64,000 nucleotides of DNA from Olleya sp. Bg11-27 (GTDB taxonomy: Bacteria > Bacteroidota > Bacteroidia > Flavobacteriales > Flavobacteriaceae). Location of the stretch: NCBI RefSeq assembly GCF_002831645.1, contig NZ_CP025117.1:813514-877513 (forward strand), written 5' to 3'. The position numbers were made by a program, and so were the translations under genes. The notes below the pieces were generated by a model. It was not told the DNA's origin. It was given only the letters and a program-made list of their open reading frames with translations, and made no database searches. Below, piece after piece: positions 21,803-24,636 of this stretch. Within the stretch, counting starts at the first letter, position 1, and every line of letters starts with the position of its first letter.

Positions 21803-22585
21803 CTAGTCTAAATTTCGTATAAATTTCTCAACGTTAATGTGGACATCATCTTCCCCTTGTTGATCAAATGGATTCTCTAAATGGGATTGAATGTTATCTA
21901 AAGCCACAAGAATAACACTAAACATGACGGGTACAGCGTATTGAAGTCCGTAACTATAACTGGTTACACTGTGCGCAAAATGTGGTCCGTAAATGATAGG
22001 TAAAGCAATAATAAAAATATCACTATAGGTACGAAGCGTGCGCGGTGTGCGATATTGATAAATGTGTTTTATACGTTCAAAAGAAATCATCATTTTGCTA
22101 AGAAACTGATTAGATCTTGAGGCTTCACCAGAAGGTAAACCATGAGATCTTAACGTTTTTATAAAAAGAGAAATGGTGTTGAAGTTTTCGTATACTTTTT
22201 TCTCTGTGGTTTCTAATTCGTCAACTGGGTTTGTAAAAACATCTGTTAAAGAATTTAATAAATTTTCAAGATTAGTTTTTATTTCTGTTTTAAGTGCTTC
22301 GGGAGGATTCTCCAACCAATGTGATACAGCAAAATACAGGGCGCGACCATGTGCTTTGATCGATCCGTACTCGTCTAAAGCAACTTCACGACGCTTGTAA
22401 GCACCTCCAATTGAAAACACAATTGGAAATACAATAGCTGTTCCAATAAGCGTTAAGGGGAAGTCTGCTTTAATTTGGTAATGAATACAAAATGCGGTGG
22501 ACGCTATAGCTAAACCGGTAATTACAAATGTTTTCCAGTTTATAATTAAGAAAACACGTTTGAACAACTTGATGTTTAAGCCCAT
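21803..22585 (-). CDS. bestrophin-like membrane protein (tentative)
   Basis: This 260-residue protein has two N-terminal membrane helices (about 18-36 and 41-59). They are followed by the segment FSIGGAYKRREVALDEYGSI and further helices near residues 185-225. A small hydrophobic N-terminus followed by a loop in which basic residues and aromatic positions track the bestrophin (YneE) motif suggests a bestrophin-like anion channel. The match is loose, and a plain hypothetical membrane protein is the safe reading. The start overlaps the hemF stop region by 10 bases, so it is coupled to the haem operon. Confidence 0.5.
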   Translation of the reverse strand: MGLNIKLFKRVFLIINWKTFVITGLAIASTAFCIHYQIKADFPLTLIGTAIVFPIVFSIGGAYKRREVALDEYGSIKAHGRALYFAVSHWLENPPEALKTEIKTNLENLLNSLTDVFTNPVDELETTEKKVYENFNTISLFIKTLRSHGLPSGEASRSNQFLSKMMISFERIKHIYQYRTPRTLRTYSDIFIIALPIIYGPHFAHSVTSYSYGLQYAVPVMFSVILVALDNIQSHLENPFDQQGEDDVHINVEKFIRNLD

Positions 22586-24063
22586 TTTTTAGGATTTTGT
22601 AATACGTCAATTAATTTTTCTTCTTCACTACCAGCTTCTGGTTGATGATCGTAAACCCATTGGACATGTGGTGGTAGGCTCATTAAAATACTTTCGATAC
22701 GTCCATTGGTTTTTAGTCCAAAAAGTGTGCCTTTATCATGCACTAGATTGAATTCTACATAGCGTCCACGACGTATTTCCTGCCAATCGCGTTGTGCTTT
22801 TGTGTAATCTAAGTTTTTTCTTTTTTCTACTATAGGAACATAAGCTTCTAAAAAACTATCGCCAACTTCGGTAACATAATCGTACCAGTTTTGCATGCTC
22901 ATATCTTCAGTAGCTTTGCAATAATCAAAGAATAGCCCTCCAATACCACGACCTTCATTACGGTGTGTATTGTAAAAATAGTCGTCGCAACGTGCTTTGT
23001 ATTTTGGATAAAATTCTGGATTATGCTTGTCGCAAGCCGTTTTACAGGTTTGATGGAAATGTGTTGCGTCTTCATCGAATAAATAATAGGGGGTCAAATC
23101 TTGCCCACCACCAAACCATTGGTCTACAATGTTTCCGTCTTTGTCATACATTTCAAAATAGCGCCAATTAGCATGTACTGTTGGAACCATTGGGTTTGTA
23201 GGATGTAAAACTAAACTTAATCCACAGGCGAAAAAATCGGCATCTTCAACACCAAAATATTTTTGCATGCTGTCTGGTAATTTACCATGAACACCAGAAA
23301 TATTAACACCTCCTTTTTCAAAAACGTTTCCATTTTCGATAACTCGTGTTCTTCCTCCGCCGCCTTCTGGGCGTTCCCAGAGGTCTTCTTGGAAAGTGGC
23401 TTTTCCGTCTATTTTTTCTAGACCAGCTGTAATTTGATCTTGTAGTTGCTGTATGTATTTGAAAAATTTATCTTTGATGTCTAAATTATATTTAATGGTT
23501 ATATCTGTAAGGTTTTTAAAACCTGACAGGTCTTTTTTATTTATTGTATGATGTGCTTTGATAAAGTTCTCGGCGTCATTAAACAAACTTAATATATACT
23601 TTTTATTATCTGAAATAATTTTGCCATCATTAAGATATTCGTTAAAAGAAGAGAATGCGTATGTGTCAAATTGTTTTGTAACTTGATGTGTTTCAGGGTT
23701 TTTGTGAACGTATAAAATTAAAGTTTTTAAGTAATCTTCATCTTTAATTTTAATGCGCTTAAAAGGTCTTTCAAATAAAGATCCTGTCCTGTTATTTTGT
23801 TTGTTGTATGCTTTTGAATAGGCATTAAATAGGTTTGAAAATGCTTGAGAAGCGATTTTTTCCTCGGATTTTATTTTAACCACTAAATGAAAATGGTTAT
23901 TCATTAAGCAATAGGCTATAATGTTTATTTTAGTGGAAAGGTGCTTTTTAAGTAAATCTAAAAAATAAGACATGTTATCGTTGTTTTTAAAGATAACTCC
24001 GCTATCAATTCCTCGATTATAAATGTGATAGTATTGGTCTTGTTCTATTTTTTCTAAGCTCAT
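22576..24063 (-). CDS. hemF: RAYT transposase fused to oxygen-dependent coproporphyrinogen III oxidase
   Basis: This is an in-frame fusion of two unrelated proteins, 495 residues from the ATG at 24063. A TTG 15 bases upstream is also open. Residues 1 to about 170 are a REP-associated Y1 tyrosine transposase: YYHIYNRGIDSGVIF, the HUH motif H57-F-H59 in MNNHFHLVV, and the candidate nucleophile Y82 or Y86 before GSLFERPFKRI. Residues 178-188 are encoded by a REP-like hairpin. From about 197 to 495 is complete HemF, which decarboxylates coproporphyrinogen III to protoporphyrinogen IX with O2: ERPEGGGGRTRVIENG, WFGGGQDLTPYYLF, GRYVEFNLVHDKGT. HemF normally begins at MK-KF; here that codon is ATC (I196). 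Proteolysis, internal initiation or an active chimera are all possible. Confidence 0.93.
   Translation of the reverse strand: MSLEKIEQDQYYHIYNRGIDSGVIFKNNDNMSYFLDLLKKHLSTKINIIAYCLMNNHFHLVVKIKSEEKIASQAFSNLFNAYSKAYNKQNNRTGSLFERPFKRIKIKDEDYLKTLILYVHKNPETHQVTKQFDTYAFSSFNEYLNDGKIISDNKKYILSLFNDAENFIKAHHTINKKDLSGFKNLTDITIKYNLDIKDKFFKYIQQLQDQITAGLEKIDGKATFQEDLWERPEGGGGRTRVIENGNVFEKGGVNISGVHGKLPDSMQKYFGVEDADFFACGLSLVLHPTNPMVPTVHANWRYFEMYDKDGNIVDQWFGGGQDLTPYYLFDEDATHFHQTCKTACDKHNPEFYPKYKARCDDYFYNTHRNEGRGIGGLFFDYCKATEDMSMQNWYDYVTEVGDSFLEAYVPIVEKRKNLDYTKAQRDWQEIRRGRYVEFNLVHDKGTLFGLKTNGRIESILMSLPPHVQWVYDHQPEAGSEEEKLIDVLQNPKKWA
23503..23532 (-). repeat. REP-like hairpin, copy B (inside the fused gene)
   Basis: On the minus strand this reads GACCTGTCAGG, TTTT, AAAAACC, TTACAGAT. 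It is a hairpin with 12-bp arms, one mismatch and a short loop. It is an inverted copy of the element at 24077-24108 (shared core CCTGTCAGGTTTT plus AACCTTACAG). It lies exactly where the transposase ends and HemF begins, and it is translated as DLSGFKNLTDI. Confidence 0.85.
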
Positions 24064-24076
24064 GGTTATGTTGTTC

Positions 24077-24108
24077 AAACCTGTCAGGTTTTGTAAACCT
24101 TACAGGTT
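24077..24108 (+). repeat. REP-like hairpin, copy A (upstream of the RAYT)
   Basis: AACCTGTCAGGTTT and AAACCTTACAGGTT form 14-bp arms with one mismatch around the loop TGT. Copy B lies inverted 545 bases away on the other side of the transposase domain. A transposase bracketed by two inverted REPs is the classical RAYT-REP layout. The stop codon of the upstream acetyltransferase gene (24100-24102) falls inside this hairpin. Confidence 0.85.
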
Positions 24109-24636
24109 GTGTAATTCATATAACTCCATATCTAATGGGTTGCCATCAGTGGGAGTGCATTCGTTTTTCAAAGTTTTAATCCATTGGAAACCATTGTTTA
24201 TAGCGACGTTTACACTTGGTAAATTATCTTTGTGTGCAATAATTTGAAGTGTATTCAAATCCAAAGAAGTAAAAGCATAGTTTGATAATGCGGTTATGGC
24301 TTTTGATATAGTCCCTTGTCCTTTGTAATTGTAATCAATACAATAAGCAAATTCTCCTTGTTTAATGGACCAGTCTATCGCTTTTATATAGATTAATCCT
24401 ATTAATTTACTTGTTTGAGCAGTATTTAAGGTGAAAAGGAATTCTTCTTTTTTCTGAAATTGTTTTAATTTTTTTTCAACAAATAGCTGCGATAGTGTAG
24501 GGTTTAGATTGTCTTTTAAGGTCCCTGGAAAAAAACGTTTAAAACGATCTGAATTTGTGATCATTAAATCGCATAACGCCCAAGCGTCGTTAGTGTTGAT
24601 TGGTGTAATATCGAAATCGTCGAATTGCAAAATCAT
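24100..24636 (-). CDS. GNAT family N-acetyltransferase (RimJ/RimL type)
   Basis: This 178-residue acyltransferase has the RimJ/RimL-like pattern: FDDFDITPINTNDAWALCDLM at the N-terminus, a FLFTLNTAQTSKLIGLIYIK strand, CIDYNYKGQGTISKAITALSNYAF (acetyl-CoA-binding Q/GxGxI/A loop) and NTLQIIAHKDNLPSVNVAINNGF. It probably acetylates a protein N-terminus or a small molecule. It overlaps the EI24-domain gene upstream by one base. Its last codons and stop come from REP copy A, so the native C-terminus may have been trimmed or replaced when the RAYT element arrived. Confidence 0.85.
   Translation of the reverse strand: MILQFDDFDITPINTNDAWALCDLMITNSDRFKRFFPGTLKDNLNPTLSQLFVEKKLKQFQKKEEFLFTLNTAQTSKLIGLIYIKAIDWSIKQGEFAYCIDYNYKGQGTISKAITALSNYAFTSLDLNTLQIIAHKDNLPSVNVAINNGFQWIKTLKNECTPTDGNPLDMELYELHNL

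Follow-up and report, generated by a model that had tools for sequence, protein, structure and literature searches.

A 64,000-nucleotide stretch of the chromosome of Olleya sp. Bg11-27 (hereafter the window; assembly GCF_002831645.1, contig NZ_CP025117.1, positions 813,514 to 877,513) carries on its minus strand, at 24063-22576, a single open frame in which a REP-associated tyrosine transposase (RAYT; REP, repetitive extragenic palindrome), a linker encoded by a REP and the haem enzyme HemF follow one another with no stop between them. Based on comparison of this locus with its relatives, we consider it probable that the fusion is one state of a resident REP-RAYT-REP unit (a "REPtron") at the 5′ end of hemF, which is exchanged horizontally at that one site and is tolerated there through in-frame fusion to HemF. 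The evidence for this reading comes from the recurrence of the join, the restriction of hemF-linked RAYTs to one clade, the disagreement between RAYT and HemF histories, and the loss of the hemF start codon in many of the fusions.

The fused frame of the window runs from an ATG at 24063 to a stop at 22576-22578 and has 495 codons, in agreement with the first-pass annotation, which had described a RAYT continuing into a complete HemF (the mechanical open reading frame opens upstream, at a TTG at 24078). The N-terminal part (23536..24063, minus strand) matched the Pfam family Y1_Tnp over fusion residues 11-121, a marginal match at 23.3 bits against a cut-off of 23, and the RAYT profile had no match among solved structures at an E-value of 0.01. 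Its assignment as a Y1 HUH transposase domain also draws on conserved residues and on a ratio of nonsynonymous to synonymous substitution (dN/dS) of 0.28 in the comparison with G006, a genome of the same genus. The HUH pair, H57 and H59, lies in an NHFH motif, and of the candidate tyrosines that had been noted, the likely catalytic one, judged by the Y-motif table of PMC6006769, is Y118 in YVHKNP, 59 residues from H59. The C-terminal part (22576..23478, minus strand) is a complete coproporphyrinogen III oxidase: residues 201-494 of the fusion matched Coprogen_oxidas (PF01218) at 448 bits, covering positions 3-295 of the 295 in the profile, and residues 195-494 matched solved coproporphyrinogen oxidases, such as 2aex_A. 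Neither domain has a second copy in the window genome (G000), in which the HemF search gave one match and the RAYT search one match up to an E-value of 10. An oxygen-independent hemN is also present in G000, which may make HemF less than strictly essential there.

Two REP-like palindromes of 27 nt each flank the RAYT, inverted to one another and 93% complementary. A repeat search placed the left one at 24079..24105 (minus strand), at the end of the upstream GNAT acetyltransferase gene, where it contains the GNAT stop as judged against the GNAT tail of the RAYT-free relative G003, and the right one at 23505..23531 (minus strand), where it falls within the linker and is translated in frame as KDLSGFKNLTD. 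Both fold as single-stranded DNA better than all 200 shuffled sequences (z = -4.3 for the left and -3.4 for the right), and the earlier description of two inverted hairpins, the second translated as the linker, thus stands. No GTAG-type tetranucleotide was seen beside the two window REPs by eye, no scan having been made. At other loci, where the REP flanks were read by eye, the linker is likewise REP DNA, translated in a frame that differs by lineage (DLSGFENLTG, DLQGFENLAG, RPARFEKPAR); what recurs is therefore the DNA hairpin and not the peptide. The sole other copy of the window REP in the genome at up to three mismatches, G000:C1:643955-643983 (L041), lies outside the window and is apparently intergenic. 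The fusion of Aequorivita viscosa (L126) has a 104-codon linker that looks to be built of several REP-like repeats, and several REP-like palindromes also lie between the two genes at the unfused loci L048, L058, L108 and L109.

Ten genomes of the genus of G000 were compared. The fusion was present in two of them (G000 and G006, 97% identical) and hemF without the fusion in the other eight, six of which have a GNAT stop that overlaps the hemF ATG; other sequence precedes hemF in G004 and G007. In G000, the REP-RAYT-REP unit splits this GNAT/hemF junction, with the GNAT gene, recognized by Pfam and by comparison within the genus, at 24100..24636 (minus strand). The native hemF start is an ATG in G003, the nearest RAYT-free relative, and comparison with this and other RAYT-free relatives places it at codon 196 of the fusion (23476..23478, minus strand), which is ATC in both G000 and G006. 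A sequencing or assembly artefact, such as a hidden stop or frameshift between the domains, had been named in the first-pass annotation as the result that would undo the fusion; nothing was found in favor of it, and the presence of the same kind of join in independent assemblies, including G006, rules it out for practical purposes. The G000 assembly itself is one 4.31 Mb contig. The search of relatives that the annotation had proposed thus found both the join and hemF without a RAYT. On the 3′ side of hemF, a gene of 260 amino acids (21803-22585, minus strand) had no Pfam match at an E-value of 0.001.

In total, 48 distinct RAYT-HemF fusions were identified. All belong to one family, where they span 16 genera or more, and in many marine flavobacteria a RAYT gene directly precedes hemF. 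Identical HemF sequences (at seven loci in the case of the genus g158) lead us to infer that the family is Flavobacteriaceae and that g158 is Winogradskyella. In the family sample (397 genomes, 343 with any match), 15 genomes, each of another genus, had a frame that covered almost all of the query with no break, and the RAYT profile brought up a sixteenth fusion, in G143. Ten other genomes of the family had open frames of 460-845 that were rejected as further fusions, HemF being unfused at all ten. A separate RAYT upstream of hemF and on the same strand was present in nine further genomes, within 260 bp in G171, G336, G220, G214 and G147, at 1.1-1.6 kb in G325, G016 and G400, and at ~2.6 kb in G136. 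A search at the level of the order (296 genomes) added four RAYTs of the family, of 218-244 bits, across G573, G711, G674 and G706 (G706 at 208 bits), with hemF linked at 200 bp in G573, 1.1 kb in G711 and 2.1 kb in G674; outside the family, the RAYTs of this search scored 184 bits at most, the hemF neighbors of those RAYTs not having been checked. A genome-contig scan of 518 relatives gave 80 named loci, kept among the matches listed, and hemF lay downstream of the RAYT in at least 27 of these (at least 16 fused and at least 11 separate). The genera among the named linked loci listed include Winogradskyella, Hanstruepera, Algibacter, Aestuariivivens, Gelidibacter, Polaribacter and Aequorivita. 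Within g158, 26 of 68 genomes carried the fusion and 41 had no RAYT in the DNA fetched, including G452 with only ~0.2 kb of upstream sequence; G445 was dropped because of a contig end.

The hemF-linked RAYTs form one clade with an SH-like approximate likelihood ratio test (SH-aLRT) support of 98, in a tree of 93 RAYTs built by a quick method without bootstrap. The clade has 52 rows, of which 30 are fused, 17 adjacent and five labelled as unlinked. Two of these five are linked at longer range (L084, from G136, and L090, from G400), and two others, the named loci L107 and L112, are cut off too early for linkage to be judged. A gene reading as hemE lies upstream in 27 of the 27 linked named loci (among the matches listed), which places these loci in a single haem gene cluster; this count of neighbor families did not include fused frames, the hemF link having been established separately. 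As a control, 59 other RAYT loci, some with flanks of only 1.5 kb, had no common neighbor: the largest family, an ABC ATPase by eye, occurred at seven and the next at three, and one locus, L089, has a truncated hemF 1.1 kb away. The recurrent linkage to hemF relative to these controls rules out a chance neighbor as the explanation of a RAYT beside hemF. Directly 5′ of the RAYT, the gene varies by eye, being GNAT at many loci and hemE or others elsewhere. Three of the unlinked RAYT loci, L092, L120 and L124, share several neighbor families at similar distances and perhaps represent a second locus-tied RAYT lineage.

The history of the RAYT was compared with that of hemF in g158, where the linkers divide the RAYTs into three lineages, A with 4 members, B with 10 and C with 12. 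Lineages A and B required 4 and 10 changes on the HemF nucleotide tree, and each of the 500 label shuffles gave a count as low. HemF sisters carry different RAYT lineages in four pairs (L186 with B and L198 with C, L180 with A and L187 with B, L185 with B and L197 with C, L182 with A and L190 with B), while five further sister pairs consist of one RAYT-bearing and one RAYT-free member (L191/L226, L199/L243, L193/L208, L184/L221 and L022/L205). Synonymous divergence (dS) differed sharply between the two parts of some locus pairs, with RAYT versus HemF values in the closest same-lineage pairs of 0.00 versus 0.26 for L202/L204, 0.03 versus 0.88 for L195/L196, 0.03 versus 0.52 for L180/L181 and 0.06 versus 0.34 for L191/L199, and conversely 2.99 versus 0.22 for L186/L198. 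In approximately unbiased (AU) tests, for which groups were picked after inspection of the trees, the RAYT data rejected the HemF sister groups in five of the five tests tried (p from 4e-8 to 0.048). Given the mismatch of lineages with the HemF tree, the dS contrasts and the AU rejections, together with the clustering described below, the RAYT has been exchanged in addition to being inherited.

The ends of shared sequence indicate what may have been exchanged. Three of the four near-identical RAYT pairs looked at had a tract of identity reaching into hemF: in L180/L181, L202/L204 and L195/L196, the near-identical tract ends ~10-50 nt inside hemF and on the other side passes the left REP, and in L191/L199 the left-side identity falls near the left REP. 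This pattern looks like the exchange, by recombination, of a short segment of the locus. At L197, L193 and L121, a REP of another type lies to the left of the present unit, as if the hemF site had been occupied more than once. The RAYT-free loci L215, L234 and L237 retain REP remains, their hemF codon 1 is ATA or ATC and an ATG lies some codons upstream, features that would mark them as scars of former fusions.

How the unit came to each locus can be explained in other ways. One is that each arrival was a site-specific transposition, in which the RAYT unit recognized the start region of hemF and inserted de novo. Agreeing with this, the unit is what separates some filled loci from their empty sisters: among ten locus pairs compared, the first two 50-nt bins of hemF at the junction are 92-100% identical in L191/L226, L193/L208 and G000/G003, and lower in L184/L221 (86, 84) and L022/L205 (76, 94). 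In addition, the GNAT/hemF junction of G000 is interrupted by the unit; hemF is constant among loci and the gene 5′ of the unit changes (by eye); and the three loci noted above have REPs of a different type next to the present unit. However, the near-identical tracts that extend into hemF and past the left REP are what recombination in the flanks predicts, and no target motif was identified, so that de novo insertion at each locus seems to us an unlikely course. Another explanation is a single ancient fusion that was inherited vertically and lost many times, and it would account for the one RAYT clade, for the agreement of both trees at the genus level (Arenibacter and Flavobacterium groups) and for the clustering of RAYT presence on the HemF trees. 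On the family HemF tree, RAYT presence required 17 changes (shuffled mean 26.8, with 0 of 500 shuffles as low) and fusion 21 (shuffled mean 24.2, 50 of 500). As a full account, the ancient fusion is contradicted within g158 by the different RAYT lineages of HemF sisters, the AU rejections and the dS contrasts, and we give it very little credence, save that it is possible for deeper nodes. Several observations do nevertheless weigh against the horizontally exchanged unit that we favor. RAYT presence and absence are clustered on the HemF tree in g158 too (14 changes, shuffled mean 22.5, 0 of 500), lineage C is mildly clustered (9 changes, with 15 of 500 shuffles as low), RAYT dS was below HemF dS in just 35 of the 117 same-lineage g158 pairs, the HemF data rejected only one of three RAYT-based groups (AU p = 0.079, 0.0595 and 0.001), and the HemF tree is itself a proxy for the species tree. 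Furthermore, some pairs lack sharp ends to the exchanged tracts; the clade member L128 (Flavobacterium difficile) is a real exception, with hemF on another contig; and the RAYT of G706 (208 bits, outside the tree) has no hemF within ~8 kb. The retained start codons discussed next belong with these points.

The question of what is translated from the fused frame turns on the hemF start codon, which was lost in 26 of the 48 distinct fusions, mostly to ATC or ATA. The linker contains no ATG, GTG or TTG in 23 of these 26. All three are missing from the 30 codons upstream in 16 of the 26, and an ATG is missing from the 100 codons upstream, likewise in 16 of the 26. For the window, the closest in-frame start before hemF is a TTG, 36 codons upstream, and the closest ATG is 142 codons upstream. 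Because the start has been lost in so many fusions and the linker seldom offers another, the fused RAYT-HemF is likely to be the translated product. It could instead be that the fusion is nominal and the shared frame incidental, with HemF translated separately from an internal start, whether a kept ATG, a near-cognate codon (ATC, ATA or GTC) or an ATG at the end of the RAYT. Codon 1 of hemF is still start-capable in 22 of the 48 fusions (it is ATG in L129), leaving a separate HemF possible there; 10 of the 26 start-lost fusions have an in-frame ATG, GTG or TTG within 30 codons upstream, in the RAYT end or the linker; and adjacent, unfused RAYT-hemF pairs exist. Against this stand the lost starts and start-free linkers, the uninterrupted shared frame of all 26 g158 genomes that carry the RAYT (these copies being related), and the three RAYT-free loci with REP remains, where an ATG precedes a codon 1 that reads ATC or ATA. 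On balance, we regard separate translation as a rather unlikely explanation. In many RAYT-free g158 genomes (L205-L208, L216 and others), the hemF start codon is TTG, shortly after the GNAT stop. Both domains have been maintained: H57 is kept in 47 of the 48 distinct fused RAYTs, and H59 and Y118 in all 48. The unit encodes a single-strand DNA nuclease of the HUH type that is probably active. By the Nei-Gojobori method, ten pairs (six fused and four adjacent) had dN/dS values of 0.09-0.28 for the RAYT, 0.05-0.12 for HemF (one saturated; 0.05-0.07 in the six fused pairs, one saturated) and 0.29-1.96 for the linker, which is intergenic in the adjacent four; same-lineage medians in g158 were 0.14 for the RAYT and 0.05 for HemF. 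There is purifying selection on both domains and not on the linker. Such selection would also be expected of a bifunctional protein that benefits the host, with the RAYT regulating haem synthesis or HemF dimerizing the RAYT. The fusion is, however, in the minority (16 of 397 genomes in the family sample and 26 of 68 in g158) and has passed from lineage to lineage, as would be expected of a mobile unit more than of a fixed host function, and a beneficial protein of this kind appears highly improbable. The suggestion in the first-pass annotation of a captured element making a bifunctional protein was right in that the join is real and in frame and both parts are under selection, but the fusion is not a one-off: it recurs in the family and the RAYT moves independently of hemF. 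None of the observations favored the other possibilities that it raised, a self-processing protein or a link between transposase and haem expression.

Taken as a resident and exchanged unit, the REP-RAYT-REP segment would occupy the 5′ end of hemF, with the RAYT translated as the N-terminal part of HemF and HemF folding and functioning as the domain C-terminal to a loose linker that the REP encodes. Fusion in frame would make the insertion harmless, and subsequent decay of the hemF start would tie HemF to the RAYT frame and make the RAYT hard to lose. Spread would be by recombination of a short segment of the locus (REP-RAYT-REP with some flank), possibly stimulated by RAYT cleavage, and REP remains with a displaced hemF start would be what past fusions left behind. 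By analogy, we tentatively raise the further possibility, a somewhat doubtful one at present, that the RAYT acts as a homing element: its HUH nuclease would nick RAYT-free hemF alleles or the REP scar, repair would copy the unit with short flanks, and fusion would protect the unit until it decayed to a scar. Homing elements and inteins lie in conserved genes, in frame with the host protein, are patchily distributed and horizontally moved, and leave remains after loss. The hemF RAYT shares with homing endonuclease genes and inteins the one fixed site (with the exceptions of L128 and perhaps G706), the reading frame, presence and absence among relatives, horizontal movement and apparent remains. 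In contrast to them, it belongs to the HUH single-strand nuclease family and forms an N-terminal fusion without splicing; no piece of HemF precedes it, unlike in an intein.

Among known systems, the window RAYT is closest to the RAYT/TnpAREP proteins, with which it shares a single-copy Y1 HUH protein, the NHFH and YxHxNP motifs and inverted REP palindromes, and from which the hemF-linked clade differs in that exchange occurs inside a genus, linkage is to a single gene and fusion to an enzyme is frequent. We have filed it as TnpAREP-like without a subclass, since its HUH-to-Y spacing of 59 is unlike the median of 82 given for Bacteroidetes subclass 2.6 (PMC6006769). Y1 transposase chemistry and palindromic ends are also shared with IS200/IS605 elements, as outlined in PMC8266576; several near-identical copies would be expected of such an element, whereas G000 has one, at one chromosomal site. 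The HemF part differs from other oxygen-dependent coproporphyrinogen III oxidases in its N-terminal transposase. A RAYT-HemF fusion was not found in the literature searched, which leaves most subscription papers outside it, and a term search of the main text of the RAYT/REP paper gave no mention of hemF.

The RAYT literature has yet to settle how these transposases maintain themselves in single copy, and whether they have been domesticated or act selfishly. In the RAYT clade tied to hemF, closely related species have sites that are filled, empty, swapped or apparently scarred, and the question becomes testable there at one locus. The clade also indicates that, in this family, a metabolic enzyme has repeatedly tolerated a DNA-processing domain at its N terminus.

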